From Gluconacetobacter takamatsuzukensis (GTDB taxonomy: Bacteria; Pseudomonadota; Alphaproteobacteria; Acetobacterales; Acetobacteraceae): a stretch of 64,000 bases of DNA. The notes beneath the pieces are model-generated. The model had not been told where the DNA came from and did no database searches. It saw only the letters and a program-made list of their open reading frames with translations. Below are positions 13,414 through 57,721 of this stretch, one piece after another. The stretch lies in NCBI RefSeq assembly GCF_014174275.1, contig NZ_JABEQK010000005.1, forward strand, positions 62,001-126,000, written 5' to 3'. The position numbers and the translations under genes are program-made. Each line of letters starts with the position of its first letter. The stretch's first letter is position 1.

Positions 13414-13450
13414 TTCGCCACGCTCTAACGACCGAACCGGCAGATTCCCG

Positions 13451-16414: not shown

Positions 16415-17433
16415 ACGCCATGACCACGCCCCTCACCACCACGCCGCCCCCCGGCCACGTCCCCGTCATGCTGGCCGAGGTGCTGCAGATGCTGGCCCCG
16501 AGGGACGGCGCGACCTATCTGGACGGCACGTTCGGCGGCGGCGGCTATGCCCGCGCCATCCTGGCCGCTGCCCGCTGCACCCTGTGGGCCATCGACCGCG
16601 ATCCCGCCGCCATCCGCCGCGGCGAGGCCCTGCAGGCCGAACTGCGCGCCGCCGAAGGCACCAGCCGCCTGCACATGGTCGAAGGCGGTTTCGGCGACAT
16701 GCGCGCCCTCCTCGACGCACGAGACGCGCCGGCGCTGGACGGCGTGGTGCTGGACCTCGGCGTCTCGTCCTTCCAGATCGACGAGGGCGCGCGCGGATTC
16801 TCGTTCCGCCACGACGGCCCGCTGGACATGCGGATGGGCGATACCGGCCCCACGGCGGCCGACATCGTGAACCGCACCGACGAATCCGACCTCGCGGACA
16901 TTCTCTATCAGTATGGCGAGGAACGGCTGTCGCGCCGGGTGGCCCGCGCGATCGTCGCCGCCCGCGCCCAGGCCCCGATCCTGACGACGTTCCGCCTGGC
17001 CGAGATCATCCGCTCGGTGGTGCCGGGCGACCGCTCGGGCATCGATCCCGCCACCCGCTCGTTCCAGGGCCTGCGCATCCACGTCAATGACGAGCTGGGG
17101 CAGATCCGCTCGGGCCTCGACCAGGCGCTGGAGATGCTGGCGCCCGGCGGCCGGCTGGTCGTCGTGTCCTTCCATTCGCTGGAGGACCGGCTGGTCAAGC
17201 AGGCCATGCACCGCGCGGCCGGCCGCCTGCCCGGCCCGTCGCGCTACGACCCCCGCTCGATCCAGGCGCGGGACGAGGCTCCGGGCTTCCGGCTGCTGAC
17301 CGGGCGCACCCTGCGCCCCGGCGACGCCGAATGCCGCGCCAACCCCCGCGCCCGCAGCGCCCGGCTGCGCGCGATCGAACGCCTTCCCATCCCGGACACA
17401 TCCGACACCAGCCACGCGGAGCGCCGCCCATGA
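16411..17433 (+). CDS. rsmH: 16S rRNA m4C1402 methyltransferase RsmH
   Basis: A 340-aa SAM-dependent methyltransferase that makes N4-methylcytidine 1402 in 16S rRNA (formerly MraW). Visible blocks are '[13 protein letters not shown]' at the start, the SAM-binding '[16 protein letters not shown]' (~38-53), '[30 protein letters not shown]' (family signature, ~113-142) and '[18 protein letters not shown]'. It overlaps mraZ by four bases and ftsL by four. Length is close to the usual ~310-340. Confidence 0.97.
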
Positions 17434-20432: not shown

Positions 20433-21901
20433 CGCACACCCTGTCCCGCCTGCTGGCCGCCGCCGGCCTGCCCGCGCCCGTGGCGGCGGATCCCGCGATC
20501 GCCCTGGTCACGGCCGACAGCCGCAAGGTGCGCCCCGGCGCCCTGTTCGTCGCCATCCCCGGCACGCGGGCCGACGGCCGCGCCTTCATCCCCGCCGCGC
20601 TCGCGGCGGGCGCCGCCGCCATCGTCGCCCCGTCCGACGTGCCGCCCGATGCGGCACCCGGCATCCCGCTGATCCATGCCGAAGAGCCCCGGCACGCGCT
20701 GGCCCTGCTGGCCGCCGCCTTCGCCGGCCCGCAGCCCGGGCGGGTCGTCGCCGTCACCGGCACCAACGGCAAGACCAGCACCGTCGATTTCCTGCGCCAG
20801 ATCTGGGGCTATCAGAGCCGCCTGGCCGCCAGCATCGGCACGCTGGGCATCATCGCCCCGGTGGCGCTTCCGCCCATCGGCCCCATCCTGACCACGCCCG
20901 ACAGTGTGGGGCTGGCCGATACGCTGGCCGCCATGGCGCGCGGCGGCATCACCGACGTGGCGATCGAGGCCTCGTCCCACGGGCTGGAACAGCACCGGCT
21001 GGACGGGCTGCACCTGACGGCCGCCGGCTTCACCAACCTGACCCGCGACCATCTGGACTACCACGGCACGCTCGACGCCTACCGCGACGCCAAGCTGGCC
21101 CTGTTCGACCGGCTACTGCCGGAAGGCGCGCTGGCAGCGGCGAATGCGGACATGGAGCCCGAGACCCTGGCCGCCCTGCGCGCCATCGCCGCCCGCCGGC
21201 GGTTCGACCTGCGGCTGGTCGGCACACAGGGCGACACGATCCGCCTGCTGGACAGCACCCCCCTGCCCGAGGGCCAGCGCCTGCGGCTGGAAGTCGGCGG
21301 CACGATCCAAGACATCACCCTGGCACTGCCCGGCCGCTTCCAGGCCGACAACGCCCTGCTGGCCGCCGCCCTGGCCGCGCCCGGCGCCGACGGGCTGGCC
21401 CAGACCCTCGCCCTGCTGCCCGCGCTGACCGGCGTGCGCGGCCGGATGGAGCGCGCGGCCCTGCTGCCCAACAATGCGGCGGCCTATGTCGACTACGCCC
21501 ACACGCCCGACGCGCTGGCCCGCCTGCTGGACGCGCTGCGCCCGCACGCCACCGGCCGGCTGATCGTCGTCTTCGGCGCCGGCGGCGACCGCGATCGCGG
21601 CAAGCGCCCCCTGATGGCGCAGGAAGCGGCCCGGCGCGCCGACATCGCCATCGTCACCGACGACAATCCCCGCACCGAAGACCCGGCCGCGATCCGCCGC
21701 GAGGTCCTGGCCGGCGCACCCGGCGCGATCGAGATCGGCGACCGCGCCCGCGCCATTGCCGAGGGCCTGTCGATGCTGCGCGCCGGCGACGTGCTGGTCG
21801 TGGCCGGCAAGGGCCACGAACAGGGCCAGACCATCGGCACCACCACCCTGCCCTTCGACGACGTGTCCGTGATCCGCCTGATGGCCGGGGTGGCGGCATG
21901 A
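20429..21901 (+). CDS. murE: UDP-MurNAc-tripeptide synthetase MurE (meso-DAP adding)
   Basis: A 490-aa Mur ligase adding the third stem residue to UDP-MurNAc-L-Ala-D-Glu, ATP-dependent, cytosolic. 'TGTNGKTST' is the P-loop (~110-118), 'EASSHGLEQHRLDGL' and 'TNLTRDHLDYHGT' are central-domain motifs, and the C-terminal domain carries 'DNPR' in 'VTDDNPRTEDP', the known marker of meso-diaminopimelate specificity. The start ATG overlaps the ftsI stop; the open frame upstream is an antisense-free shadow of ftsI. Overlaps murF by four bases. Confidence 0.96.
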   Translation: MTHTLSRLLAAAGLPAPVAADPAIALVTADSRKVRPGALFVAIPGTRADGRAFIPAALAAGAAAIVAPSDVPPDAAPGIPLIHAEEPRHALALLAAAFAGPQPGRVVAVTGTNGKTSTVDFLRQIWGYQSRLAASIGTLGIIAPVALPPIGPILTTPDSVGLADTLAAMARGGITDVAIEASSHGLEQHRLDGLHLTAAGFTNLTRDHLDYHGTLDAYRDAKLALFDRLLPEGALAAANADMEPETLAALRAIAARRRFDLRLVGTQGDTIRLLDSTPLPEGQRLRLEVGGTIQDITLALPGRFQADNALLAAALAAPGADGLAQTLALLPALTGVRGRMERAALLPNNAAAYVDYAHTPDALARLLDALRPHATGRLIVVFGAGGDRDRGKRPLMAQEAARRADIAIVTDDNPRTEDPAAIRREVLAGAPGAIEIGDRARAIAEGLSMLRAGDVLVVAGKGHEQGQTIGTTTLPFDDVSVIRLMAGVAA

Positions 21902-44499: not shown

Positions 44500-46116
44500 T
44501 CACTTCGGCACGCCCGGCACCAGCAACAGGGCCAGACTTTCGGGCGGCAGCGTGACATCGCACCGGCTCGCCCGCGCACAATCCGCCACAGGTTGCGGCG
44601 CGGGCAGGCGGGCCGCGGCCATCAGCGCGCCGGCCTGCTGCGATGTCGGCGACACCGGGCGCCCCATGGATTCGAACACCGCGGCAGGCGTGCCATGCGT
44701 GCGATCGATCACGATCATCGTTGCGCCATCGACCGATTTCACGCCCCTGAACGCCAGATGCTGCGCCCGCGCCCGCTGCGGGTCGCGGTTCCACAGCGCG
44801 ACCGCAATCGCACCATCCTCCCGCCGGGTCGCGAGGATATCGTCACCGCCCGACCCGGCCGGCAACCGCCGGTCTCCCAGACGATGCAGCAGCGCAAAGG
44901 CATTGAACGCAGGCTTGGGAATGCCATGGGTCGTCAGCAACCCATAGGCGCCCGGAATCTCGTTGGCCATCACCCCCTGCTCCTCGAAATCGTCCGAAAA
45001 CGTCCAGTAGGACATGATCGGCGCCAGCCCGTCGCAGTCGTGCACCGTCTGCGCAATCCACGGCGCGATCCATGGACGATCGGCGCTGCCGTTATGAATA
45101 TCCCAATCCGCACCGAATTCGGTGATGTAGAGCGGCAGGTCCGGATGCCCCGAACGATCGATCGCCCGCCGCGCCGTCCGCGTCGCATCGCAGACCGTGT
45201 TGCCCGTATTGTCGGGCGATTTCGGCAATCTGAGCAGATCGGGCGGATCGTTGGCATAGATATGTGTCGAGACGAAATCGACCGGCACATGCGCGCGGGT
45301 CACATGCTCGACAAAATCGCCAACCCAGTGAATGGCCCCCGTCGCAGGCCCGCCGACACGCAGGGCCGGATCGACCGCCTTGATGGTGCGGGCGGTATTG
45401 TCGTAGAGGGCGAAATAGGTCGCCATCCGGGGCTGCGCCACCCAGGTCGCCTGGTCGGGCTCGTTCCAGACTTCGAACGGCCATTGCCGGACTTCCCCGG
45501 CGCCGTAACGCTGTTCCAGATGTTCAACGAAGGCGCGGATCAGCGCGTTCCAGTCCTCCATATGCGCCGGAAAGGTCACATTGGCCCGGTACCACAGCGT
45601 CCCGCCGCTATAATCCGTGATCGGCCGCGCCGCCTCGTCCGCCTTGCGGTGCACCAGCGGCTCAAGCCCGCCATCGCGGCGCAGCACGTCGCTGCCAATG
45701 GCGCTCGGCATGAACGAAAGCTCGACCAGCGGCCGGATATGATGCGCCAGCAGCCCGTCATACACCGCATCGACCTTGCGGAAATTGTAATGCATGTGCC
45801 CGGCATCGTCCGGCGCCATGATGCCCATCGTGTCGTCGAAGATGCCGTGGAACCGCACATATCGGAAACCGGTCTCCTGCCGCGTCCTGTCGGCATTCCG
45901 CAGATAGCTCTCCGTCAGGACCATGTCGGCGCGGTCCGACCCGAACGCCTGCTCCCAACTATGCCGGAACGGTTTCCCGGCGCCGGACGCATCGATCTCT
46001 ATGGCGGGCACATTGTCGGCCGCCCCGGCCCGGGCAGGCCACGACACGCCCCCCGCCACCAGAACCGCCGCCGCCGAGCAGACCCGAAAAATCCGAAACG
46101 CCGTCACCTTCTTCAT
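44500..46116 (-). CDS. Exported GH39-like glycoside hydrolase
   Basis: A 538-aa protein resembling glycoside hydrolase family 39 (beta-xylosidase / alpha-L-iduronidase type). A signal peptide ('FRIFRVCSAAAVLVAGGVSWPARAGA') suggests export. The TIM barrel contains 'FEVWNEPDQATW' with the likely acid/base Glu (NEP), and 'LYITEFGADWD' with the likely nucleophile Glu. A beta-rich C-terminal domain follows ('GAIAVALWNRDPQ'). I chose the ATG at 46116, with GGGAG eleven bases upstream, over a GTG four codons earlier. It would attack plant or bacterial glycans; the sugar is not predictable. Confidence 0.8.
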   Translation of the reverse strand: MKKVTAFRIFRVCSAAAVLVAGGVSWPARAGAADNVPAIEIDASGAGKPFRHSWEQAFGSDRADMVLTESYLRNADRTRQETGFRYVRFHGIFDDTMGIMAPDDAGHMHYNFRKVDAVYDGLLAHHIRPLVELSFMPSAIGSDVLRRDGGLEPLVHRKADEAARPITDYSGGTLWYRANVTFPAHMEDWNALIRAFVEHLEQRYGAGEVRQWPFEVWNEPDQATWVAQPRMATYFALYDNTARTIKAVDPALRVGGPATGAIHWVGDFVEHVTRAHVPVDFVSTHIYANDPPDLLRLPKSPDNTGNTVCDATRTARRAIDRSGHPDLPLYITEFGADWDIHNGSADRPWIAPWIAQTVHDCDGLAPIMSYWTFSDDFEEQGVMANEIPGAYGLLTTHGIPKPAFNAFALLHRLGDRRLPAGSGGDDILATRREDGAIAVALWNRDPQRARAQHLAFRGVKSVDGATMIVIDRTHGTPAAVFESMGRPVSPTSQQAGALMAAARLPAPQPVADCARASRCDVTLPPESLALLLVPGVPK

Positions 46117-46360
46117 CAACGCAAACACTCCCGGTCGAGGAAGCGGGACAGCATCGCAATGAACACGAACTTGTCAAATCCGCGATTTTTGCGCCACGCA
46201 TGCCGCCCCTTCCCCCATCCGGCTGGCCGAACGGGGCGCGGATGCGCTAGCGTGGATGCCTCATGACACATTCCGCCCAGGGGCGTCCCGCCCCCATCCG
46301 CCTTCCCGCAGCCCCGCCGCCCCCCGGCCCCGGCCTCGCCGCCCGGGCGGAGGCACGGCC

Positions 46361-47707
46361 ATGATGCTGCTGGCCGGGCTGGTCGCGGTCGTCATCCTGA
46401 TCGGGTTCAGCATCCTGATCGCCCTGTCCGAAATCTCGTTCGCGGCAGCGCGCGAGGTACGGCTGCGCACGCGGGCCGAGGCCGGCGACAGCCGGGCGGT
46501 GAATTTCCTGCGCCTGCGCCGCAACAGCGGGCAGGTGGTCACGGTGCTGCAGATCTGCCTCAACGCGGTGGGCGTGCTGGGCGGCGTCATCAGCAGCGAC
46601 ATGGTCACCCCGCCGCTGGCCGACATCCTGCGCCGCGCGGGGCTGGACGGCACCCTGGCCGGCCATGTGGCGTCCACCGCCTCGTTCGTGCTGATCACCA
46701 GCCTGTTCGTGCTGTTCGCCGACCTGCTGCCCAAGCGCATCGCCATGAACGCGCCCGACCGGGTGGCCCTGAGCATCGGCTGGTTCCCCGCCATCGCGCT
46801 GAAGGTGCTGTACCCGTTCGTCTGGATCTTCTCCAAGATGTCGGACGTCATTCTCCGCGCCCTCAAGATCCCGGCCGCCTCGGCCGTCGAGCCGGTCACG
46901 CCCGAGGACCTGCGCGCCATCCTGGCCGCCGGCACCGCGTCGGGCGTCCTGCTGGAGCAGGAACACCAGATGATCCAGAACGTCCTGGGCCTGCAGGACC
47001 GTTCGGTGACCTCCGCCATGACCCCGCGCGACGAGATCGTGTTTCTCGACATGCAGGAAAGCGCCGAAATCCAGCGCGACAAGGTGCGGGCCAAGCCCTA
47101 TTCCCGCTACCCGCTCTGCAATGGCGGGCTGGACAATGTCATCGGCTCGATCCGCGCCGAGGACGTGCTGGCCGCCGTGGTGGAAAAGCCCGAGGACGTC
47201 GACCCCACGGCCACGATCCTGCCGGTGGCCAAGCAGATCTCCCGCATGCGGCGCGACGTGCTGTCGCTGCCCGACACGCTCAATCTGTGGGACACGCTGG
47301 CCCAGTTCGACACCCACGGCGCGGGCTTTGCCCTGATCGTCAACGAATACGGGCTGGTCGTGGGGCTGATCACCTTCAAGGACATCATGGGCGCGCTGAT
47401 GGACGGGCTGGCCAACCCGTTCGAGGAACAGGCCATCGTCCGCCGCGACGAGAATTCGTGGCTGATCGACGGCGCCGCCCCGATCGGCGACGTGATCCGC
47501 GAACTCGGCGTGCCCGACCTGCCCGACAGCCATAATTTCGATACGATCGGCGGCTTCGTCATGCACCGCCTGCGCCGCATGGCCCGCAAGGCCGACAAGG
47601 TCGAGGCCGCCAATTTCCTGTTCGAGGTCGTGGACGTCGAGGGCTTCCGCATCAACCAGCTTCTGGTCACGCGCCGCCCCCGCCGGCCCGATGCCGATCA
47701 GCCGTAA
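46361..47707 (+). CDS. CNNM/CorC-family membrane protein (hemolysin-C-like)
   Basis: A 448-aa protein with the CNNM transmembrane domain (DUF21; residues ~1-190, about four spans; 'LIALSEISFAAAREVRLRTRAEAGD' early on), then two CBS domains (~215-335; 'SVTSAMTPRDEIVFLD', 'GFALIVNEYGLVVGLITFKDIM') and a CorC/HlyC C-terminal domain (~350-435; 'SWLIDGAAPIGDVIREL', 'TIGGFVMHRLRRM'). The family is linked to Mg2+/Co2+ transport or efflux; the old name 'hemolysin' is misleading. The ATG at 46361 has GGAGG about eight bases upstream. Convergent with the GST-like gene (10-base overlap). Confidence 0.9.
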   Translation: MMLLAGLVAVVILIGFSILIALSEISFAAAREVRLRTRAEAGDSRAVNFLRLRRNSGQVVTVLQICLNAVGVLGGVISSDMVTPPLADILRRAGLDGTLAGHVASTASFVLITSLFVLFADLLPKRIAMNAPDRVALSIGWFPAIALKVLYPFVWIFSKMSDVILRALKIPAASAVEPVTPEDLRAILAAGTASGVLLEQEHQMIQNVLGLQDRSVTSAMTPRDEIVFLDMQESAEIQRDKVRAKPYSRYPLCNGGLDNVIGSIRAEDVLAAVVEKPEDVDPTATILPVAKQISRMRRDVLSLPDTLNLWDTLAQFDTHGAGFALIVNEYGLVVGLITFKDIMGALMDGLANPFEEQAIVRRDENSWLIDGAAPIGDVIRELGVPDLPDSHNFDTIGGFVMHRLRRMARKADKVEAANFLFEVVDVEGFRINQLLVTRRPRRPDADQP

Positions 47708-48324
47708 TCGGGAATGCCGGGCATGGTGACAAAGCCCGGCAGCGCCCGCACCGCGCGGACCCAGCGCCGCAGCGCGGGATAGGCGGCATGCTCCTCGCCC
47801 CAGTCGCGACACAGCGCGGCGGCGGGGAACAGCGCAATATCTCCCACCGTCGGCCCCTCTCCCACCACCCAGCATCCTCCCTCCAGTCGCCGATGGGCCA
47901 GATGGTCCTCCACGATCCGCAACGCCGCCACCGCCGCGCGCCGGCGGTCGGATTGCGCATCTCCCGCACCTTCGAACAGGCAGGCCCGCCGCATCCGCGC
48001 CGCCGCACGCAACGGCCCGCCGGCAAACTGCAACCAGTGCGCAACCTGCGCGAATTCCGCCCGCCCCTCGGGCAGCCACGCCGGCCGCCCATGCGCCAGC
48101 GCCAGCAGCGCAGCCTCGGCCCCACACACCGCCTGCCCGTCGATATGCAGCACCGGCAACATCCCGGCCGGCGAGATCACGCGAAAAGCCGGCCCATCCT
48201 GCTGGCCGCCGGGCACGACATCGACCGCGACCCGCCGCGCCTGAAGCCCCAGCAGCGACAGGAACAGCCGGACCCGATAGCAATCCTCGTCCAGTTCGTC
48301 GTCGTGCAGCACCAGTTCGCTCAT
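47698..48324 (-). CDS. Glutathione S-transferase-like protein
   Basis: A 208-aa GST-fold protein. The N-terminal thioredoxin-like domain has 'CYRVRLFLSLLGLQ' and the cis-Pro block 'SPAGMLPVLHIDG'. The helical C-terminal domain has 'LEGGCWVVGEGPTVGDIALFP', the N-capping region typical of GSTs. It is the last gene of a three-gene minus-strand unit; its ATG overlaps the stop of the Rieske-protein gene by four bases. In the caffeine N-demethylase system a GST-like protein (NdmE) holds a Rieske-less oxygenase and a Rieske-bearing reductase together, and this one may play that part for the split oxygenase here (inference). Alternatively it is a plain GST. Confidence 0.82.
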   Translation of the reverse strand: MSELVLHDDELDEDCYRVRLFLSLLGLQARRVAVDVVPGGQQDGPAFRVISPAGMLPVLHIDGQAVCGAEAALLALAHGRPAWLPEGRAEFAQVAHWLQFAGGPLRAAARMRRACLFEGAGDAQSDRRRAAVAALRIVEDHLAHRRLEGGCWVVGEGPTVGDIALFPAAALCRDWGEEHAAYPALRRWVRAVRALPGFVTMPGIPDYG

Positions 48325-48995
48325 GCCACGCTTCCCGCCAGAAAAACCTGCCCGGCCCGTTCTTCCGCCCGCGCCCGCACATCCTGCGCCCAATCGGCCA
48401 GGTCATGCAGACGCTCCACTTCGGCAGGCGCCGCCGCCTGCACATGCAGCATGCACGCCCCCGCCCCGACCGGCAGCAGCGCCGCCAGCACCCGGCCCTC
48501 GACATCCCGATCCAGCACACCGGCCCGATGCCCGTCCGGCATTCCGATCGCCCGCGCCACATCATCCCACGGGGCCTCGATCCGCAGCGACCGCACCGGC
48601 AGCCAGGTCTCCTTCGCCGCCTCATCGCCCGGCAGCGGCCCCGCATCCTGGACCGAGGCCCAGACCAGCCCATGACCCTCCGCGACGCGCAAGGGCGCGG
48701 CCCGGATCGTGCCGGGCGGCGACAGGTCGGGATGGGCGGGGATATGCACGCACCGCCCGTCCGCCCCAAAGCGCCAGCCATGATACAGGCAGGCCAGCGC
48801 GCCCTCGCGCACAAAGCCCAGGCTCAGCCGCATGCCGCGATGCGGGCACCGATCGTCCCAAACATGCGCCTGCCCCTGCCCGTCACGCCAGACCGCGAGT
48901 TCCCGCCCGTGCACAACGCTGCCGACCACCGTACAGGGCTCCAGATCCGCCGACAGAACCAGCGGATACCATCCGCCGTCGCGACTCATACCCAT
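48321..48995 (-). CDS. Stand-alone Rieske [2Fe-2S] protein of oxygenase type
   Basis: A 224-aa protein whose first ~115 residues match the Rieske domain of ring-hydroxylating oxygenases ('GWYPLVLSADLEP', 'GRELAVWRDG'). Cluster ligands are C50-x-H52 and C69-x2-H72 ('CPHRG', 'CLYHGW'). The following ~105 residues are unlike the oxygenase catalytic domain: there is no DxxHxxxxH iron motif and no ferredoxin-reductase signature. It may therefore serve only as an electron carrier. Genes on both sides overlap it (10 and 4 bases). The ATG at 48995 has GAGGGGGG upstream. A matching Rieske-less catalytic subunit lies at 54793-55671. Confidence 0.85.
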   Translation of the reverse strand: MGMSRDGGWYPLVLSADLEPCTVVGSVVHGRELAVWRDGQGQAHVWDDRCPHRGMRLSLGFVREGALACLYHGWRFGADGRCVHIPAHPDLSPPGTIRAAPLRVAEGHGLVWASVQDAGPLPGDEAAKETWLPVRSLRIEAPWDDVARAIGMPDGHRAGVLDRDVEGRVLAALLPVGAGACMLHVQAAAPAEVERLHDLADWAQDVRARAEERAGQVFLAGSVA

Positions 48996-49279
48996 CCCGC
49001 ACCCCCCTCTTTCCACCCCGACACCCCACCATGATCCGATAGCGGCAGGCAGCGCATGACGGGCACCGGGCACCCTGCCGGCCCCAGGCTGCATGCCATT
49101 TCGAAGGCACCGACCATCGGTTCCGGCCCTGCGACCTCAAACACCACCCGCGCCGCCCCCGCCTCCACCACCACGCATTCCAGCCCCATCAGGGCGGCGC
49201 GCTCATGGGCAAAACACAGGATCGCGTCGACCGCCGTGCAGCCGTCCAACTCCAGACGCATCCGCTCCCGCCGGCTCAT
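48986..49279 (-). CDS. 97-aa protein of unknown function, first gene of the Rieske/GST unit
   Basis: A 97-aa protein I do not recognise. It has a mixed alpha/beta look ('AVDAILCFAHERAALMGLECVVVEAGAARVVFEVAG') and a Gly-rich tail, with Cys at residues 14 and 22 and several more near the end, but no known metal motif. Its stop lies 10 bases inside the Rieske-protein gene, so the two are probably translationally coupled. It heads the minus-strand unit, 92 bases from the divergent nicotinamidase-like gene. An earlier ATG at 49336 is possible but would enter the divergent promoter region. Confidence 0.6.
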   Translation of the reverse strand: MSRRERMRLELDGCTAVDAILCFAHERAALMGLECVVVEAGAARVVFEVAGPEPMVGAFEMACSLGPAGCPVPVMRCLPLSDHGGVSGWKEGGAGWV

Positions 49280-49371
49280 GCCTGCCTCCGCGCTGTCCCC
49301 GAATCCCCGATAGCCCGGCCTTTGGAAACGTGCCATCCCTGTTCCGAAACCGTACCGAACCGAGAGCGGCC
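49280..49371. promoter_or_regulatory. Divergent intergenic region of the split-oxygenase locus
   Basis: Ninety-two bases separate the start of the 97-aa/Rieske/GST unit (minus) from the start of the nicotinamidase-like gene (plus). Promoters for both must lie here or in the coding edges. No clear -35/-10 boxes or palindrome were resolved by eye. Confidence 0.35.
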
Positions 49372-49974
49372 ATGATCCATGTCACAAGCCATGACGCGTT
49401 GCTGGTCATCGATCTCCAGAATGATTTCCTGCCCGGCGGCGCGCTGGCCGTGCGGGACGGCGATGCGGTCATCCCGATCATCAACCACCTGACCCTGCTG
49501 CCTTTCGGCCAGCAGGCCGCCAGCCAGGACTGGCACCCGCACGGCCATGTCTCCTTCGCCAGCACGCACGGGCGCAGAGCCGCCCCCGATCACTGGCCCG
49601 ACCATTGCATCGCGGGAACGCACGGCGCCGAACTGGCCGCCACGCTGCACCAGGCACGAATCGGCATGGTCATCCGCAAGGGTCGCGACCCGGATATCGA
49701 TAGCTATTCGGCCTTCATCGACAATGATCGCGCCACCCGGACCGGGCTGGATTCTTGGCTGGCTGGCCTGGGCATAAGCCGCGTCTTCATTACCGGGCTG
49801 GCGCTGGATTATTGCGTGCGCTTCACCGCCATCGACGCAAAGGCCCTTGGTTTCGAGACGATCGTGGTCGAAGATGCATGCCGCGCGGTCGGCCCCGATC
49901 CGCAGGAGACATGGCAGGTCCTGGCCCGGCACGGCATCGCGCGTGCCCAGGCCAGCGAACTCGCCGGCCTGTAG
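49372..49974 (+). CDS. pncA: Nicotinamidase-like isochorismatase-fold hydrolase
   Basis: A 200-aa protein close to bacterial nicotinamidase PncA (nicotinamide to nicotinate + NH3, NAD salvage). The catalytic triad is visible: Asp14 in 'VIDLQNDFLPGGALAV', Lys103 in 'VIRKGRD' and Cys148 in 'GLALDYCVRFTAIDA'. Metal-site residues sit in 'SQDWHP' and 'WPDHCI', and 'DSYSAFIDN' is also conserved. Its placement before an ABC importer and a split Rieske oxygenase leaves open that it deaminates or hydrolyses another heterocyclic amide. 107 bases separate it from the binding-protein gene. Confidence 0.87.
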   Translation: MIHVTSHDALLVIDLQNDFLPGGALAVRDGDAVIPIINHLTLLPFGQQAASQDWHPHGHVSFASTHGRRAAPDHWPDHCIAGTHGAELAATLHQARIGMVIRKGRDPDIDSYSAFIDNDRATRTGLDSWLAGLGISRVFITGLALDYCVRFTAIDAKALGFETIVVEDACRAVGPDPQETWQVLARHGIARAQASELAGL

Positions 49975-50081
49975 AGCAAGGGGGCGACCCGTTTCCGGGG
50001 GGAACCGCCCGGCGCCGGGTGGGACCGGCCCGGGCGATCATCGAGAGGGGAATGCGGAACCATGACCATTCCGGGTCAGGT

Positions 50082-51206
50082 ATGACCACGCACGCGCCGA
50101 CCAGGCGGCTTCTGACATCACGACGACATATGCTGGGACTGGCCGCCGGAGCGGCCGGCAGCGGGCTGCTGCGGCCACTAGGCCTACGGGCGCAGCCCCG
50201 GATCCTGCCCCCGGTGGCCGAGGCCGACGCACTGGTCGCCTTCGGCCATACCAGCCCGGTCACCGACGGCGGCTGGACGATGGCGCACGACCAGGGCGTG
50301 CAGGCGGTGCGGAAGGCCTTTCCGCGCCTGCGCACGGTATTTGTCGAAAGCGTGCCCTATTCGGCCGATGCCACGCGCATCTTCCGCCAGTTCGTGGCCG
50401 AGGGCGCGCAGATGGTCATCTCGACCTCGAACTATGGCGATTTCATCCGCGACGTCTCGGACCGCGCGCCCGAGGTCGCGTTCATGGAATGCGACGGCCA
50501 TGCCGTCAGCGGCAATCTGGGCTGGTATTACATCACCCACTGGTATGCCAGCTACGTCATCGGCATCGCCGCCGGACTGATGACCCGCACCAACAAGCTC
50601 GGCTTCGTAGGCTCGTTTCCCATCCCGTCGGTCTATGCGGGGGCCAACGCCGTGCTGCTGGGCGCGCGTTCGGTCAACCCGGCGGTCACGTTGCAGGCGA
50701 TCTCGATCAACGCCTGGTTCGATCCGCAGGCGGCCACCCAGGCCGGCACCGCGCTGGCCGAGAATGGCTGCGATTTCCTGTGCGGCATCATGGACGAACC
50801 GGCTTATCTGCGCGTGGCCGAACAGCGCGGCATCAAGGCCGCGATGTGGAACACCGACATGCGCCAGTATGGGCCCGAGGCCTATGTCAGTTCCGTCACG
50901 CTGGATTTCCGCGATTATTATGTCGATCTGGTCCGCGCCCGCCTCGCCGGTACCTGGCAGCCCGAAGGCCGCTTCCTGACCCTGGGCTGCGGTGTGGACC
51001 GCGACCCGTGGGGCCGCACCGTACCGCCCGAAATCGCTGCCCAGGCCGATGCGATGCGCACGCAGATCATGGCGGGCTACAACCCGTTTCGCGGTCCGAT
51101 CCACGACGCCGCCGGCCGCCTGCGCGTGGCAGCAGGCGAGGTGATGGACGATGCCCTGATCTACCAATGGGACTGGGCTGTCGCGGGAGTCACCGGCCTT
51201 GACTGA
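50082..51206 (+). CDS. BMP-family ABC transporter substrate-binding protein
   Basis: A 374-aa binding protein of the BMP/Med family (PF02608), whose members bind nucleosides, purines or similar compounds for import. A twin-arginine signal ('TSRRHMLGLAAGAAGSG') suggests Tat export. 'FGHTSPVTDGGWTMAHDQGVQAVRKAFP' begins the mature fold. The start is uncertain: ATG 50082 (listed) or ATG 50052, which has GAGAGGGG too close for normal initiation. It is followed with an 8-base overlap by the ATPase gene. First gene of a complete importer (binding protein, ATPase, two permeases). Confidence 0.88.
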   Translation: MTTHAPTRRLLTSRRHMLGLAAGAAGSGLLRPLGLRAQPRILPPVAEADALVAFGHTSPVTDGGWTMAHDQGVQAVRKAFPRLRTVFVESVPYSADATRIFRQFVAEGAQMVISTSNYGDFIRDVSDRAPEVAFMECDGHAVSGNLGWYYITHWYASYVIGIAAGLMTRTNKLGFVGSFPIPSVYAGANAVLLGARSVNPAVTLQAISINAWFDPQAATQAGTALAENGCDFLCGIMDEPAYLRVAEQRGIKAAMWNTDMRQYGPEAYVSSVTLDFRDYYVDLVRARLAGTWQPEGRFLTLGCGVDRDPWGRTVPPEIAAQADAMRTQIMAGYNPFRGPIHDAAGRLRVAAGEVMDDALIYQWDWAVAGVTGLD

Positions 51207-52791
51207 CCTGCTCCACAGCGTAGGCGACACGCCGCCCCCGGTGGCGCCGGGCACGCCGCCGATCCTGCAATTGCAGGGTATCTGCAAATATTTCCCGGGC
51301 GTGATCGCCAACCAGGATGTCAGCCTGGACATCGCCCCCGGCGAAATCCACGCCCTGCTGGGCGAAAACGGCGCCGGCAAGTCCACGCTGATGAACGTGG
51401 TCACCGGCATCTACCAGCCCGATGGCGGCGAAATCATCCTAGACGGCTACGGCCAGAACTTCGCCGGCCCGCAGGATGCGATCCGGGCCGGAATCGGCAT
51501 GGTCCACCAGCATTTCAAACTGGTCCCCGCCTTCACGGTGGCGGAGAACATCCATCTGGGCTGGCGCGAGACCCCGTTCCTGGCCTCGGCCAGGGTGCTG
51601 GAGGCCCGCACCCGCGCGCTGTCGGAGCGGTTCGGCTTTTCCGTCAGGCCCGACGCCATCGTGGCCGACCTGTCGGCGGGCGAGCAGCAGCGGGTGGAAA
51701 TCCTGCGCGTGCTGGCCCGGCAGGCGCGGCTGCTGATCCTGGACGAGCCGACGGCGGTGCTGACGCCGACCGAGACGCGCGACCTGTTCCGCGCCCTGCG
51801 CGCCTTCCGCGCCCAGGGCAATGCCGTGATCCTGATCAGCCACAAGCTGGACGAGGTCATCGACATCTCCGACCGGATCAGCATCCTACGTGCCGGCCGC
51901 AATGTCGGCACCTATCGCACGGCGGACTGTACCGCCGGCGGACTGGCCACCATCATGGTAGGGCGCGAGATCGTGCGCCGCGACCTGCGCGCCCGCGCGC
52001 CCGGCGCCGCCCCCATCGCCGCCGCCCCGGTCCTGAGCCTGCGCGGCGCCACCTGCCGCGATCCGCGCGGCGTCGAGACCCTGCGCGACGTGACGCTGGA
52101 CCTGCATGGCGGCGAAATCCTCGGCATTGCCGGCGTGGCCGGCAACGGGCAGCGCGAACTAACGCAGGTGCTGACAGGCATGATGCCCCTGTCGTCGGGC
52201 CGGATCCTGCTGGACGGAACCCCCGCCCCGCTGGCCGACCCGGCCGCTTTCGCCCGCGTGGGCATCGGCCATATCCCCGAGGACCGTCTGCGCAGCGGCC
52301 TGGCGCCGTCGCTGGACATTACCGACAACATGGCGCTGCGCGAATATGACCGGCCGCCGATCGGCCGCCATGGGCTCTACGACCGAAACGCCGCCGGCCG
52401 CCTGGCCCAGACGATCGTCGAAGCCGCCGAGGTGCGGGTGCCGGACCTCGCAACCCCCATCCGCAACCTGTCCGGCGGCAACCAGCAGCGGCTGGTGGCA
52501 CGGCGCGAAATCCGCATCGCCAGTCGGGTGTTGGTCGCCGCCTACCCCAGCCGGGGGCTGGATATCGGTGCGATCGCCACCGTGCTGCGCTACCTGACCG
52601 ACCTGCGTGACCAGGGGGTGGCCGTGGTGCTGGTGTCCGAGGATCTGGAGGAACTGCTGAACGTGGCCGACCGAATCGGCGTGCTGTTCCACGGCCAGTT
52701 GATGGCCACGATCGACGCCGCGACGGCGGATATGGAAACGATCGGCCTGCTGATGGGCGGCCGTTCGGCACATGGCGGAGGAGATGCCTGA
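51199..52791 (+). CDS. ABC transporter ATPase with two nucleotide-binding domains (nucleoside/BMP-type)
   Basis: A 530-aa ATPase with two fused NBDs, the arrangement used by BMP-type and sugar importers. NBD1 is complete: Walker A 'GENGAGKST' (~55-63), signature 'LSAGEQQRVEI', Walker B 'LLILDEPTAVLTP'. NBD2 has the usual degenerate P-loop 'GVAGNGQREL' but keeps signature 'LSGGNQQRLV' and 'SRGLDIGA'. The start appears to be a TTG at 51199 with GGGAG about nine bases upstream, inside the end of the binding-protein gene; no in-frame ATG is near. Its stop overlaps the first permease by one base. Confidence 0.92.
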   Translation: MTDLLHSVGDTPPPVAPGTPPILQLQGICKYFPGVIANQDVSLDIAPGEIHALLGENGAGKSTLMNVVTGIYQPDGGEIILDGYGQNFAGPQDAIRAGIGMVHQHFKLVPAFTVAENIHLGWRETPFLASARVLEARTRALSERFGFSVRPDAIVADLSAGEQQRVEILRVLARQARLLILDEPTAVLTPTETRDLFRALRAFRAQGNAVILISHKLDEVIDISDRISILRAGRNVGTYRTADCTAGGLATIMVGREIVRRDLRARAPGAAPIAAAPVLSLRGATCRDPRGVETLRDVTLDLHGGEILGIAGVAGNGQRELTQVLTGMMPLSSGRILLDGTPAPLADPAAFARVGIGHIPEDRLRSGLAPSLDITDNMALREYDRPPIGRHGLYDRNAAGRLAQTIVEAAEVRVPDLATPIRNLSGGNQQRLVARREIRIASRVLVAAYPSRGLDIGAIATVLRYLTDLRDQGVAVVLVSEDLEELLNVADRIGVLFHGQLMATIDAATADMETIGLLMGGRSAHGGGDA

Positions 52792-53846
52792 TGGCCGGCA
52801 CGCTGCAACGTCTGCCCACCGTCACGCCGGGTCGCCGGCTGGCGTGGCGCGCGGGTGCCGTCGTCACCGCGCTGGCGATCACCACCCTGTTCCTTGCCCT
52901 GTCGGGGCGCGATCCGCGCCTGCTGGCCGATCTGGTGGTGCGCTCCACCGTGGGCTCGCGCTTCGGACTGGAAGACCTGGCCCTGTTCCTGACCCCGCTG
53001 CTGCTGACCGGCGCCGCCGTGACCGTGACCGGGCGGATCGGGGTGTGGAACATCGGTGCCGAGGGCCAGTTCTATGCCGGGGCCATCGGCGCCACGGCGG
53101 TCGGCCTGTACCTGCCCGGCCCGGCGTGGCTGGTGCTGCCGCTGATGGCCGCCAACGGCATTGCCTGCGGCATGGGGTGGATCCTGGTCCCGGCGCTGGC
53201 GCGCGCCTATGCCGGGGTCAACGAGATCATCACCACACTGCTGCTGAATTTCGTCGCCGGGCTGCTGACCACCTATCTGGCGGTCGGCCCCTGGCATGAC
53301 CGCGTGACCGGCGCCCTGGCCTCCACCGGCCGGCTGCCGGTGCGCATTCCCGAAATCTGGGGCGTGGTGCATTGGGGCTTCCCCATCGCCCTGGCCGTCG
53401 TGCTGGGTCTGGCGTGGCTGACCACCCGCACGCGCTGGGGCTACCAGATCACCATCAGCGGCGCGAACGAGCAGGCCGCCCGCTATGCGGGCATGAAGGT
53501 ACGCGCCCGCATCCTGGGCGTGATGCTGCTGTCCGGCGGGCTGGCCGCCTTGGCGGGGGTGTTCGAGGTCGCGGGTACCGTGCACCGGCTGCAAGGCGGG
53601 CTGGCCAATAATTTCGGCTATTTCGGCATCGTGGTCGCGGTGCTGGCGCGCGGATCGTGCCTCAACGTGCTACCCGCGGCCCTGCTGATGGCCTTTATCC
53701 TCAATGCCGGCATCGTGCTGCAGACCGAGCAACTGACGGCCTCGGCCGTGCTGGCCATTACCGGGCTGGTGCTGTTCATGATCGCGATCGCGGACGAACT
53801 GGCCCACTACCGCCCTGTCACCATCCGCGCGGAGGCCCGGCCATGA
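52791..53846 (+). CDS. ABC transporter permease 1 (BMP-type importer)
   Basis: A 351-aa polytopic permease of the BPD_transp_2 group, with about ten hydrophobic segments. 'GRIGVWNIGAEGQFYAGAIGA' (residues ~82-102) is the family's conserved loop, and 'VNEIITTLLLNFVAGLLTTYL' and 'YQITISGANEQAARYAGMKV' follow; the last is the coupling-helix region that contacts the ATPase. TGATG overlap with the ATPase gene; four-base overlap with permease 2. Confidence 0.91.
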   Translation: MAGTLQRLPTVTPGRRLAWRAGAVVTALAITTLFLALSGRDPRLLADLVVRSTVGSRFGLEDLALFLTPLLLTGAAVTVTGRIGVWNIGAEGQFYAGAIGATAVGLYLPGPAWLVLPLMAANGIACGMGWILVPALARAYAGVNEIITTLLLNFVAGLLTTYLAVGPWHDRVTGALASTGRLPVRIPEIWGVVHWGFPIALAVVLGLAWLTTRTRWGYQITISGANEQAARYAGMKVRARILGVMLLSGGLAALAGVFEVAGTVHRLQGGLANNFGYFGIVVAVLARGSCLNVLPAALLMAFILNAGIVLQTEQLTASAVLAITGLVLFMIAIADELAHYRPVTIRAEARP

Positions 53847-54781
53847 TCGACCTGCTGACCGGCACGCTCTCCACCGCTGTTCTCGCCGGCGGCGTCCTGG
53901 CCCTGGCCGCGTTGGGCGAGGTCCTGGCCGAACGCGTGGGCGTTACCAACCTGGGCGTCGAGGGGCTGATGTCGCTGGGTGCGGTCATCGCCATCATCAC
54001 CGTGGTCGCAACCCCCGACCCATGGCTGGGCCTGCTGGCGGCAACCCTGGCCGGCGCTGTCGGGGGCATGGTCTTTGCCTTCGCCACCGTCATCGTCCGC
54101 GCCAATCAGGTGCTGTGCGGACTGGCCGTCACCTTTCTCGGCCTCGGCCTGTCGGCCAGTGTCGGCCATGATTACGCCGGCGTGCCGTCGCCCGCGACCT
54201 TCGGCCGCGTGCCGATCCCCGGCCTGTCGGCCTTGCCGGTGATCGGGCCGGCCTTCTTCGGCCAGAATCTGCCGGTCTACCTCATCTATCTGGTCCTGCC
54301 GGGGCTGGCGCACTGGGTGATGTTCCACACCCGCCACGGGCTGGCGATGCGGGCGGTGGGCGAAAACCCGGCGGCGGCCGATGCGGCGGGCCTGCCGGTC
54401 ACCGCGCTGCGCTTCTGGTATGTCACGCTCGGCGCGGGACTGGCCGGGGCGGCCGGCGGCTACCTGACCCTGACCTATGTCCCCGTCTGGTCCGAAGGGC
54501 TGATCGCGGGGCGCGGGTGGATCGCGCTGGCACTGGTGATCTTTGCCGGCTACCGGCCCTTCGGCGCCACATTGTCGGGCCTGCTGTTCGGGCTGATCAC
54601 GGCCCTGTCCTTCGTCGGGCAGGCCCGCAACTGGCCAATTGCGCCCGCCTTCCTGAACATGCTGCCCTATCTGGGCACGATAGCGTTCATCATCGTCCCG
54701 GTCGTCGTCTGGCACCGCATGCGCCGCATCATGGCGGCCCCGGCGGCGCTAGGCGTGCCTTACCACCGCGATGTGAGATAA
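53843..54781 (+). CDS. ABC transporter permease 2 (BMP-type importer)
   Basis: A 312-aa second permease of the same importer, with about eight to nine membrane segments. It shows the paralogous loop 'GVTNLGVEGLMSLGAVIAI' (~35-53) and the coupling-helix block 'HGLAMRAVGENPAAADAAGLPV'. The pairing of a longer and a shorter permease is standard for nucleoside/BMP importers. It starts by ATGA overlap and ends 11 bases before the Rieske-less oxygenase gene, tying import to oxidation. Confidence 0.91.
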   Translation: MIDLLTGTLSTAVLAGGVLALAALGEVLAERVGVTNLGVEGLMSLGAVIAIITVVATPDPWLGLLAATLAGAVGGMVFAFATVIVRANQVLCGLAVTFLGLGLSASVGHDYAGVPSPATFGRVPIPGLSALPVIGPAFFGQNLPVYLIYLVLPGLAHWVMFHTRHGLAMRAVGENPAAADAAGLPVTALRFWYVTLGAGLAGAAGGYLTLTYVPVWSEGLIAGRGWIALALVIFAGYRPFGATLSGLLFGLITALSFVGQARNWPIAPAFLNMLPYLGTIAFIIVPVVVWHRMRRIMAAPAALGVPYHRDVR

Positions 54782-54792
54782 GGAGTCCTGCC

Positions 54793-55671
54793 ATGATCCC
54801 GACCTCTCGCGTGGCCCCCGAAGACCGCGCCGTGCTGGATGCCTGGCACGCGGTCAGTTTTCTCGAAACACTGGGCGCAGACGCCACCCATACATGCCTG
54901 CTAGGCACGGATCTGACGATCCGGCGCGGGGCAGACGGCACGATGCAGGTCCAGGCAGAGGGGCGTGAGGCCCCCCTGCCGGTCGCCGAACGCTATGACT
55001 GCCTGTGGACCAGTCTGGGCACGCCGCCCGCCGTCCCGCTCGCCATCCCGGAGGCCGATGAACCCGATCGCCGCCTGGTCTGTTGCGGCTCGATCGATGT
55101 CCATGCCTCGGGCCTGCGCGTGGTCGAGAACTTCCTCGACATGGCGCATTTTCCCTTCGTCCATACCAATATCCTGGGGGCCGAGCCGCAGACCGAAGTC
55201 CTGCGCTACCACACCGAATGGCGGCGCGACGTCGATGAAATCTGGGCCACCGACTGTCGTTTTCATCAACCGCAGGCCGCCCTCTCGGCCGAAGGCGGGC
55301 AGGACACGGGCTATATCTACCGCGTCGCCTCGCCCTTCGTGACCCTGCTGTACAAAACCTGCCCCAACGACGCGCTACGGCCCGACGTCATCGCCCTGTT
55401 CGTCCAGCCGACGGCGCCCGACCGGTGCCGGGCGCATCCGGTGATGTTCCTGATCGACGACGTCTCAGCCCAGGCGGACCTGATCCAGTTCCAGCAGAAG
55501 ATCTTCCTTCAGGACCGGATCATCCTGGAAAACCAGCGCCCCCGCCTGCTGCCGCTGGACGCGCGCGCCGAAATCCCGACCCGCGCCGACTCCCTTTCCG
55601 TCACGTATCGCCGCTGGCTGAAGGAAAAGCAGGTCCGCTACGGCGCCACCGGTGCCCTGCCCGCCGCCTGA
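54793..55671 (+). CDS. Rieske-less ring-hydroxylating oxygenase catalytic subunit
   Basis: A 292-aa protein with the mononuclear-iron catalytic domain of Rieske oxygenases (VanA/NdmA-like). The 2-His-1-carboxylate ligands are His119 and His124 in 'VENFLDMAHFPFVHTN' and probably Asp241 in 'FLQDRIILENQ'; Asp116 is the bridging Asp. No CxH/CxxH Rieske motif exists: the N-terminal ~95 residues keep a Rieske-like edge ('CLLGTDLTIRRGADG') but jump past the cluster region. Upstream sequence is a permease in another frame, so nothing was cut off. AAGGAG precedes the ATG. It probably depends on a separate Rieske donor, with 48321-48995 the obvious candidate. Confidence 0.85.
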   Translation: MIPTSRVAPEDRAVLDAWHAVSFLETLGADATHTCLLGTDLTIRRGADGTMQVQAEGREAPLPVAERYDCLWTSLGTPPAVPLAIPEADEPDRRLVCCGSIDVHASGLRVVENFLDMAHFPFVHTNILGAEPQTEVLRYHTEWRRDVDEIWATDCRFHQPQAALSAEGGQDTGYIYRVASPFVTLLYKTCPNDALRPDVIALFVQPTAPDRCRAHPVMFLIDDVSAQADLIQFQQKIFLQDRIILENQRPRLLPLDARAEIPTRADSLSVTYRRWLKEKQVRYGATGALPAA

Positions 55672-55978
55672 CACCAACGAGCGGCGTGAATACGCTGCAT
55701 GAACAGCGCCATCCCGTAGAACAGAGGGTCAGCCCCGACGGATTTCCGAGAATTGTCCGCCAGCACACGGGTGATTGAGCCCATGCAAAAGTAAACTTTC
55801 ACGGAATTCAAACGACGCCGAGAATATTTCATTCTTCAATGGCAACAAGACAGACGCCGCGATGGCAGGGGACCAACCCGTCACACCTCTGTGTAAGCGG
55901 ATTTTCTGTTCTTCCCAAGGCCCATTTCACGCTGCGATCCAAACGTCGTTCATTGCGGAATCTAGCAAGGCAGCCATC
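55672..55978 (+). other. 307-base intergenic region before the GGT-like gene
   Basis: No secure gene. The GGT-like frame stays open back to 55775, but the signal peptide at 55979 marks the real start. The region is AT-richer than its surroundings and probably contains the promoter of the downstream gene; no clear hexamers, repeat or terminator were identified. Confidence 0.4.
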
Positions 55979-57721
55979 ATGCACATTCAGCGGCTCGCAT
56001 TTTCGACATTGATCGCCTTCACCACGCTCCTGTCTGGACACGCCCACGCCGCGCCGCCTTCACCGGCGGCCACATCAGCAGCCCCTTTTGACCCGGTGCG
56101 GGGCGATCGGGGATATGGCTGGACCGGCCAGACCCGCTCCGAAGTGCTGGGCACACACGGGCTGGTGGCAACCAGCCAGCCCCTTGCCGCCGGGATCGGC
56201 CTCGATATCCTCAAGCGTGGCGGCAATGCCTTCGATGCCGCCATTGCAACCGCAGCGGCGATCAATGTCGTCGAACCGGAATCAGCTGGTATCGGCGGCG
56301 ATCTCTTCATGATTGCCTGGGTGGCAAAGGAGCACCGGCTCGTCGCGCTGGATTCCGCCGGGCGAGCAACTTCTGGCGCCACACCGGACCATTTCCGGGC
56401 CCGCAAACTCGATGCGGTTCCCTATACGGGGATCGAGTCGGTCGTCGTCCCCGGCACCGTGGCCGGCTGGGATGCCATTCAAAACCGCTACGGGACCATG
56501 CGGTTCAAGGAAACATTGGAGCCGGCGGCCCGCCTGGCGGAAGAAGGCTTTGCCGTAACCGAGCGCGTTGCGGGAGAATGGCAGGAATATGCCGCATTAC
56601 TGGGAAAAGACCCAGATACCAGATCGGTCTATCTTCCCCACGGCAAGCCGCTGCCACTCTACGGCATCTTCCGCAATCCCGATCTCGCCAGAACATTCCG
56701 GCTGCTTGAACAGGGCGGTGCCGATGCATTCTACAAGGGCCCGATCGCGGAAAGCATTCTGAGAAAATCCCTGGCGCTGGGCGGAACATTCGCGCGATCC
56801 GACTTCGAGAAGATCAGGCCCCAATGGGTAACACCTCTCACCACCTCCTATCGCGGATACGACATCTATGAGATGCCCCCCAGCACGCAGGGCGTCGCCG
56901 TGCTGGAGGCCCTGAATCTGATCGAACAATGCGGCCCCCGGATCGGTATCGAGCCCCGCAAGGAAGGCCCCCGCTCCCCTCTCTACTGGCACCTCCTGGT
57001 CGAGGCCAAGAAGATCGCCTATGCCGATTTGCGACGCTATGTCGGCGATCCCGATTTCGTTTCGGTGCCGACCAAAAAACTGATCAGCAAGGCCTACGCC
57101 GCCGCGCAATGCCCCAGGATCGATCCGCATCACGCAGCCATCATCGAGGCGAATCGCGATCCTGTCGGCGGCACCGTCTATCTCACGACAGCCGACCGCT
57201 TCGGCAATGTCGTCTCGCTCATCTTCAGTGTCTATGATGAGTTCGGCTCCGGCATCACCGTGCCCGGCTACGGCTTCCTTCTCAATAACCGCGGTGCCCA
57301 ATTCAATCTCGACGACAAAAGCCCCAACGTCATCGCTCCCGGCAAACGCCCCTTCTATACGATCATCCCCGGCTTCGTGATGAAGGATAACAAGCCGTTT
57401 CTCAGCCTGGGCGTGATGTATGGCGATCAGCAGGCGCAGGGGCAGATGCAGGTGTTGGAAAACATGCTCGATCTCGGTGCCAACCCACAGGCGGCCTCGG
57501 ACGCCGCCCGTTTCTCGCATTCCCAGGAAACCAATGATCTGGTCCTGGAATCCGAGCTCTACCGCATCGTCGGATCGTCCCTGAAAGCCATGGGGCACAA
57601 GGTGCACGAAGGAAACGGCCTCATCATGGGCGGCTATCAGGCGATCATGATCGATCCCCGGTCCGGGGTCTATCGTGGTGCATCCGACCACCGCAAGGAT
57701 GGCGCGGCCGTGGGATATTAA
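55979..57721 (+). CDS. Gamma-glutamyltransferase-family protein, exported
   Basis: A 580-aa member of the GGT family (Ntn hydrolases that autocleave to release an N-terminal Thr nucleophile; classic members act on glutathione in the periplasm). A signal peptide ends near 'SGHAHAAPP'. 'GGNAFDAAIATAAAINVVEPESAGIGGDLF' is the family signature. The autocleavage region reads 'GGTVYLTTADRFGNVVSL' where classic GGTs have a TTH pattern, so the Thr nucleophile is kept but its neighbours differ, as in the non-classical branch. Substrate may not be glutathione. No ribosome site is strong. Codon use is less GC-biased than in the neighbouring transporter genes. Confidence 0.85.
   Translation: MHIQRLAFSTLIAFTTLLSGHAHAAPPSPAATSAAPFDPVRGDRGYGWTGQTRSEVLGTHGLVATSQPLAAGIGLDILKRGGNAFDAAIATAAAINVVEPESAGIGGDLFMIAWVAKEHRLVALDSAGRATSGATPDHFRARKLDAVPYTGIESVVVPGTVAGWDAIQNRYGTMRFKETLEPAARLAEEGFAVTERVAGEWQEYAALLGKDPDTRSVYLPHGKPLPLYGIFRNPDLARTFRLLEQGGADAFYKGPIAESILRKSLALGGTFARSDFEKIRPQWVTPLTTSYRGYDIYEMPPSTQGVAVLEALNLIEQCGPRIGIEPRKEGPRSPLYWHLLVEAKKIAYADLRRYVGDPDFVSVPTKKLISKAYAAAQCPRIDPHHAAIIEANRDPVGGTVYLTTADRFGNVVSLIFSVYDEFGSGITVPGYGFLLNNRGAQFNLDDKSPNVIAPGKRPFYTIIPGFVMKDNKPFLSLGVMYGDQQAQGQMQVLENMLDLGANPQAASDAARFSHSQETNDLVLESELYRIVGSSLKAMGHKVHEGNGLIMGGYQAIMIDPRSGVYRGASDHRKDGAAVGY

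Follow-up and report, generated by a model that had tools for sequence, protein, structure and literature searches.

A putative NdmCDE-type Rieske oxygenase with a free-standing Rieske subunit, encoded around a BMP-type importer in Gluconacetobacter takamatsuzukensis

Genes at the locus

We examined a 64,000-nucleotide stretch of the Gluconacetobacter takamatsuzukensis genome (contig NZ_JABEQK010000005.1, positions 62,001 to 126,000; hereafter the window, to which unprefixed coordinates refer) for a locus that appears to encode a Rieske oxygenase divided between two polypeptides. One of these, RSK, carries a Rieske cluster motif; the other, CAT, carries the site for a mononuclear iron (Table 1). 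The GST-like gene and the stop codon of the RSK gene share four bases (ATGA, 48321–48324). A complete BMP importer (binding protein, ATPase and two permeases) lies between the RSK and CAT genes in this genome and ends at 54781, 11 bases before CAT. Both features are as described in an initial annotation, made by a model from the sequence alone. The nearest named relatives at the locus belong to seven Gluconacetobacter species, in which CAT is 78–91% identical (the source genome is 3.78 Mb).

Table 1. Coordinates of the features at the locus (window positions).
Feature	Coordinates	Strand	Basis or remarks
GST-like protein (NdmE-like structural subunit)	47698..48324	-	Pfam GST_N/GST_C
Rieske-only subunit RSK, 224 aa	48321..48995	-	Rieske domain 8–115; C-terminal domain 116–224 without oxygenase iron motif
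Small acylphosphatase-like protein, first gene of the Rieske unit	48986..49279	-	relatives annotated acylphosphatase
Nicotinamidase/isochorismatase-fold hydrolase	49372..49974	+	NF008623, 197 bits against a cut-off of 174
BMP-type substrate-binding protein	50052..51206 (later start at 50082 possible)	+	Pfam Bmp, 96.4 bits
Importer ATPase	51199..52791	+	profile matches
Importer permease 1	52791..53846	+	profile matches
Importer permease 2	53843..54781	+	profile matches
Catalytic subunit CAT, NdmC-like, 292 aa	54793..55671	+	complete non-haem iron domain; cluster-less Rieske remnant, residues ~12–75

RSK and CAT are complementary halves

RSK matches the Pfam Rieske family (78 bits) and no second Pfam family at E up to 0.1, and contains C50/H52 and C69/H72. 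CAT matches Pfam VanA_C (73.7 bits) without a Pfam Rieske match, and contains D116, H119, H124 and D241. The initial annotation had assigned a full Rieske motif without a catalytic iron motif to the first gene and iron ligands without a Rieske cluster to the second, and both assignments hold. Neither protein is a classical alpha subunit, in which the Rieske and iron domains share one chain.

In a search of solved structures, RSK residues 8–115 matched residues 11–120 of SxtDIOX (E 1.6e-25), and CAT residues 63–285 matched the same chain at 108–333 (E 3.7e-17). SxtDIOX and SxtT were the best solved relatives of both halves, which were searched independently. Because the separately searched halves share these relatives over complementary parts, the split is far beyond chance.

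The predicted model of CAT (mean predicted local distance difference test score, pLDDT, 85.6; below 50 at residues 121–134, which adjoin the iron ligands) can be superposed on complete SxtT/GxtA chains with template-modelling (TM) scores of 0.77–0.82, normalised by the query. A profile comparison of a single pair, the first 75 residues of CAT and the Rieske part of RSK, gave E 1.6e-8 with a probability of 94.5, which supports the view that the N-terminal ~75 residues of CAT represent a Rieske domain minus both cluster loops. The RSK model (pLDDT 89.2) aligns to oxygenase chains past its Rieske domain, with TM scores of 0.65–0.75 (normalised by RSK) against SxtT/GxtA and dicamba monooxygenase chains at a loose root-mean-square deviation of 5.7–8.1 Å. 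The C-terminal domain of RSK, of ~110 residues, is ordered as strand, helix, three strands and long helix. Profile comparison gave no sequence signal for a degraded catalytic domain (E 0.96 against full-length oxygenases and 0.87 against CAT); fold similarity suggests the hypothesis that it is one. The idea that two copies decayed in complementary ways thus has support on the CAT side, from the profile signal, and is only suggested on the RSK side, by fold likeness.

Conservation and co-occurrence of the halves

Relatives of the locus were taken as the best 80 of 541 relatives by CAT, 11 of which have shortened flanks and 69 full flanks. Both halves occur in all 80 genomes. RSK lies within the fetched locus in 76 and elsewhere in the genome in four, always beside a GST gene and in L097 (locus and genome handles beginning with L and G are ours) also beside a second CAT copy. 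Wherever the locus holds RSK (76/76), RSK and GST share a strand and either overlap or are at most 8 bases apart; an overlap of 350 in one case probably reflects a wrongly called start codon.

Motifs were compared across 109 sets, comprising the window, the 80 loci and 28 further chosen sets. Left out were L009–L011, L122 and L139 (no RSK in short flanks), the fragments L038 and L125, the near-copies L143 and L144, and full-length oxygenases; for the four genomes with RSK off the locus, RSK and GST were drawn from other loci. CAT retains N113, D116, H119, H124 and D241 and lacks the Rieske motif in 109/109 sets, and RSK retains C50, H52, C69 and H72 and lacks the catalytic motif in 109/109. 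A GST-like gene is present in 108, the exception being L123, where a Rieske-reductase gene reaches the edge of the locus. The exclusive motifs, the complementary matches and the near-constant GST gene together support the earlier proposal of a two-piece oxygenase with a GST partner.

The 109 sets were picked by CAT similarity, so a less selected test on 385 genomes of the class weighs more. CAT (E up to 1e-40) was found in eight of these, the present genome and seven others. RSK (E up to 1e-22, a threshold that would miss weaker lone Rieske proteins) was found in the same eight and in two more, whose matches are full-length oxygenases of 355 and 378 aa. The two genes are neighbours on one contig in all seven other genomes, and one of these (G390) has RSK fused to a reductase (575 aa). 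The conserved co-occurrence on which the initial annotation had staked its proposal is therefore found. A 398-genome sample of the phylum yielded CAT in 15 members, three from other classes. Pairwise distances for CAT, RSK and GST correlate at 0.87–0.90 over 81 sets, of which common descent alone would yield part.

A full-length oxygenase of 355 aa (L178:886-1953, genome G530) contains both motifs and has a catalytic stretch closely like that of CAT, and is a candidate unsplit relative with which the family could be rooted.

Gene arrangements, fusions and phylogeny

The arrangement is not peculiar to this locus. In Rhizobium johnstonii 3841 (pRL10, RL_RS29065-29105) and in Shinella, genes for RSK, CAT, GST, an amidohydrolase and a BMP importer follow each other on one strand, all encoding free proteins. 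In L192 (822-3652, genome G884) a row of RSK, CAT, GST and a reductase (NAD_binding_1 and Fer2) is likewise entirely free. The CAT of this row (230 aa as called) is without nearly all of the Rieske remnant, which makes it a minimal natural system.

On plasmid pKNA08 of Komagataeibacter nataicola (L145:2902-9453), a single reductase gene separates a normal set from a second one. This plasmid, typed as conjugative, thus carries two split-oxygenase sets and one ordinary oxygenase around the reductase; the Rieske-like protein of the second set (L145:4742-5314) is without the second cysteine of the motif.

Elsewhere, namely in L123 and five annotated plasmid sets, RSK is the leading portion of a longer chain that continues into a reductase. 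NdmD-like fusions of 585–588 aa occur on plasmids of Klebsiella, Pseudomonas, Paraburkholderia caffeinilytica and Sinorhizobium; in four, Pfam places Rieske at ~7–91, NAD_binding_1 within ~374–473 and Fer2 at ~502–580. The reductase is joined to the other half on a Variovorax paradoxus VAI-C plasmid, where a 604-aa CAT-reductase fusion (VanA_C, NAD_binding_1 and Fer2; L146:7914-9728) is accompanied by a free Rieske protein, a GST and an upstream BMP binding protein. A 2025 review states, in the part consulted, that a self-sufficient Rieske oxygenase is yet to be identified (PMC12445004); the Variovorax fusion comes close to one. On pSymA of Sinorhizobium meliloti (L147:7977-12237), a tandem pair of NdmC-like genes accompanies one NdmD-like gene, one GST gene and a divergent BMP importer, and tandem CAT pairs occur likewise in L186, L188 and L190.

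NdmD-type rows are scattered among free-standing rows in the CAT tree, in which well-supported branches force at least three changes. They also lie among free-standing rows in the RSK tree, with at least two changes and a long-branch warning; row L123, labelled free in the tree, is actually fused. CAT and the NdmC-like proteins separate from three full-length rows at 100/100, a weak result given so few and distant outgroup rows. Seven full-length rows had been removed by the motif filter, and the three left are on a very long branch, so these trees allow only the tentative proposal that the NdmD fusion descends from the free form.

Electron supply and other Rieske proteins in the genome

When the flanks of the 80 loci were searched with the L145 reductase and an NdmD-like protein, no reductase emerged; the single NdmD-query match reaching residue 275, in L071, overlaps RSK. 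The electron donor is therefore most likely encoded in trans. The genome itself has four places matching NAD_binding_1; an oxygenase-type reductase that also bears a plant-type ferredoxin motif accounts for one, and another reads as a flavohaemoglobin.

Eight places in the genome match Rieske, RSK among them. One, in the window at 13370–14128 (252 aa), reads as a respiratory-type Rieske protein and is unrelated to the split oxygenase. The others include a 121-aa open reading frame resembling a Rieske ferredoxin, a 418-aa oxygenase followed by a reductase, and three frames of 385–526 residues. The sole other match to CAT in the genome (E up to 1e-10), L004, shares its 366-residue frame with a Rieske match. 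With both halves in one frame L004 is an ordinary oxygenase, and we rejected it as a spare partner. The initial annotation had asked whether an oxygenase elsewhere might explain each half, and this was the only further CAT match.

Purine genes beside the split oxygenase

At least one relative (at least 40% identity) of guanine, 8-oxoguanine, adenine or adenosine deaminase lies in the flanks of 49 of the 80 loci (46 of the 69 with full flanks). A guanine- or 8-oxoguanine-deaminase-like gene is less than 200 bases from CAT and on the same strand in 34/80, a count that rises to 42/80 once two less specific amidohydrolase types are included. An adenine-deaminase-like gene lies less than 300 bases from GST, on the GST strand, in 36/80. 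In L118 (Mesorhizobium xinjiangense) the names 8-oxoguanine deaminase, guanine deaminase and adenosine deaminase are all over their NCBIfam cut-offs; the name adenine deaminase, tested in L060, is below its cut-off. BMP importers (at least 40% identity) are present in 60/80 loci.

As a control, guanine deaminase (E up to 1e-60) was searched in 30 of the 80 genomes, which were chosen and not random. Exactly one was present in 20, and in 16 of these 20 it is less than 4 kb from CAT, against a chance expectation of ~0.07 (20-kb window in 5.5 Mb). Because purine deaminases adjoin the module in many relatives, the enzyme likely oxidises a purine, with an imported purine as substrate; the purine-like substrate of the initial annotation gains support from this neighbourhood. 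The present genome has guanine-deaminase-like and 8-oxoguanine-deaminase-like genes away from the locus.

No purine riboswitch was found in the window at 46000–57000, nor in a scan of the genome, for which the control genomes gave no match either. Xanthine riboswitches were present in one of 21 other loci scanned: L118 has two copies (RF03054 at 16387–16436 and 20557–20606; 49.8 and 49.0 bits), close to another ABC transporter, next to the split oxygenase cluster.

Relation to known systems

The closest described system is NdmCDE, the N7-demethylase of 7-methylxanthine in Pseudomonas putida CBB5. The parts of PMC4408171 consulted describe NdmC as lacking a Rieske cluster, NdmD as carrying an extra one and NdmE as a GST-like protein with a postulated structural role; they call NdmCDE very unique among Rieske oxygenases and note homologous clusters without a known function, chiefly in Sinorhizobium and Mesorhizobium. 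NdmCDE is reported as a 3:3:3 complex of 360 kDa, with NdmC alone insoluble, in inclusion bodies (PMC10380055, in the part consulted).

The window locus resembles NdmCDE in its cluster-less iron subunit, its Rieske cluster on a separate polypeptide and the GST-like subunit encoded alongside. CAT is 45–48% identical to NdmC-like proteins whose genes adjoin NdmD-like and GST genes, a comparison made through relatives and not CBB5 NdmC itself (the Klebsiella cluster is from another strain of a species that a review names among the closest). The locus differs in that RSK is free-standing and has no reductase domain, whereas in NdmD the Rieske part is fused to a reductase. In addition, many relatives of the window type are tied to purine deaminases and not to NdmA/NdmB-like or formaldehyde genes. 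The importer is no difference, since some NdmCDE-like clusters carry an importer or a BMP binding protein. Comparison of the sequences thus supports assignment of the locus to an NdmCDE-type enzyme with a free-standing Rieske subunit, the Ndm variant that the initial annotation had proposed. No description of such a form was found in the literature searched, which covered few subscription journals. The main text of PMC11103875, in the parts consulted, yielded no fitness data for the R. johnstonii operon.

SxtT and GxtA (SxtDIOX), the best solved relatives of both halves, differ in being full-length single chains, solved with saxitoxin analogues according to the structure titles. The HpxDE system of Klebsiella also belongs here, as a Rieske-type system that oxidises purines. 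Its HpxD is only distantly related to CAT and not an ortholog: annotated HpxD is 28–29% identical to CAT over ~80%. Vanillate demethylase VanAB shares with this type of system the VanA_C match of CAT and a reductase, beside a related set, that is annotated as PDR/VanB family. VanA differs from CAT in having its own Rieske domain.

Proposed mechanism and alternatives

We think it probable, with fairly high confidence, that the locus encodes a three-subunit NdmCDE-type Rieske oxygenase with all parts separate, acting on an imported purine, most likely by N-demethylation. RSK would carry the [2Fe-2S] cluster and CAT the mononuclear iron, and the GST-like protein would hold both together, probably in a 3:3:3 assembly as in NdmCDE. 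Electrons would pass from a reductase encoded elsewhere in the genome to the Rieske cluster and then across the subunit boundary, through the bridging D116, to the iron, which would activate O2. The BMP importer next to CAT would supply the substrate, a purine base. The most likely reaction would be the loss of a methyl group from an N-methylated purine (7-methylguanine or 7-methylxanthine, for example), after which guanine deaminase and xanthine dehydrogenase could complete the breakdown.

Several observations weigh against this model. The locus has no reductase, and the one oxygenase-type reductase recognised in the genome sits behind another oxygenase. The window contains no Amidohydro_1 protein; none of the seven other Gluconacetobacter loci (0/7) has a purine deaminase in its flanks, and at 40% identity 31 of the 80 loci (11 of the 80 having shortened flanks) are without any of the four deaminase types (guanine, 8-oxoguanine, adenine and adenosine). 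Relatives of the formaldehyde-handling genes frmA and fghA at 40% identity were found in 0/80 loci, with two weak matches at 27%. Some NdmCDE clusters do carry formaldehyde-handling genes, and their absence from the 80 loci weakens the case for N-demethylation.

That absence also bears on a rather unlikely alternative, in which the same three-part oxygenase hydroxylates the purine ring, for example converting guanine at C8 to 8-oxoguanine, which the 8-oxoguanine deaminase encoded nearby would convert to urate. Such a route would need no molybdenum and would be comparable to HpxDE. An 8-oxoguanine-deaminase-like gene is present in 22/80 loci, less than 200 bp from CAT in 18, and is over the curated cut-off in L117 as well as L118. 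There is also a precedent in HpxDE, involved in the conversion of hypoxanthine to xanthine and of xanthine to uric acid (PMC7373994, in the part consulted). However, genes of the molybdenum-hydroxylase type exist in the genome, one at a distance of 2.4 kb from an amidohydrolase gene, so such a route would be partly redundant, and CAT is considerably closer to the NdmC-like proteins than to HpxD. Kinship with NdmC favours N-demethylation; the adjoining 8-oxoguanine deaminase and the lack of frmA/fghA relatives favour ring hydroxylation. Two other substrates deserve consideration. The importer and oxygenase of Gluconacetobacter could have shifted to a non-purine heterocycle, perhaps related to nicotinamide, given that a nicotinamidase-like gene (40% identity) is kept with the importer in 12/80 loci, all of Gluconacetobacter or Acetobacter, and that the window locus lacks a deaminase. 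We regard this as unlikely: CAT is 59–70% identical to versions in purine-linked loci, and residues 106–125 around the iron ligands are nearly invariant. Very unlikely, in our judgement, is a purine with another N-substituent, such as the N6-prenylated adenine of cytokinins, cleared oxidatively for an adenine-deaminase-like enzyme. The frequency of adenine-deaminase-like genes near GST fits this idea, as do the many hosts in plant-associated genera, but guanine and 8-oxoguanine deaminases are equally common beside CAT, and the adenine-deaminase name falls under its cut-off.

Free-standing Rieske ferredoxins are common, and RSK might be merely the ferredoxin of an ordinary three-component oxygenase, with CAT decayed or unrelated. 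We consider this highly improbable and rejected it on the comparison of the 109 sets: CAT keeps its iron ligands yet lacks the Rieske motif in every set, and so needs an outside cluster, and RSK has its extra domain and strictly co-occurs with CAT.

A broader proposal, to which we give somewhat less than even credence, is that an entire, hitherto undescribed class of purine-oxidising Rieske oxygenases operates as two complementary broken copies of one ancestor, RSK retaining a reduced catalytic domain that has lost its iron and CAT a Rieske remnant that has lost its cluster. The separate form would be ancestral and the NdmD and Variovorax fusions later; in plant-associated Alphaproteobacteria the enzyme would feed imported guanines and adenines, methylated or modified, into purine breakdown. 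If the model is right, split oxygenases are natural modular systems present in many genomes. With the same CAT found alongside a reductase that is free, fused to the Rieske part or fused to CAT itself, they offer good material for studies of electron transfer and for enzyme design. Genes in many rhizobia and acetic acid bacteria that are named only 'aromatic ring-hydroxylating dioxygenase', including those of the model strain R. johnstonii 3841, would also gain a function and a purine route.

Other genes of the locus

Two genes had been absent from the initial annotation, those for the nicotinamidase-like and acylphosphatase-like proteins. The acylphosphatase-like gene shares 10 bases with the start of RSK. 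The window protein has no Pfam match of its own, and the Pfam Acylphosphatase match of its relative in L118 stays under the cut-off. With a lenient threshold, 69 of the 80 genome loci contain a relative. In 81 of the 82 loci that hold both, it lies less than 600 bases from RSK.

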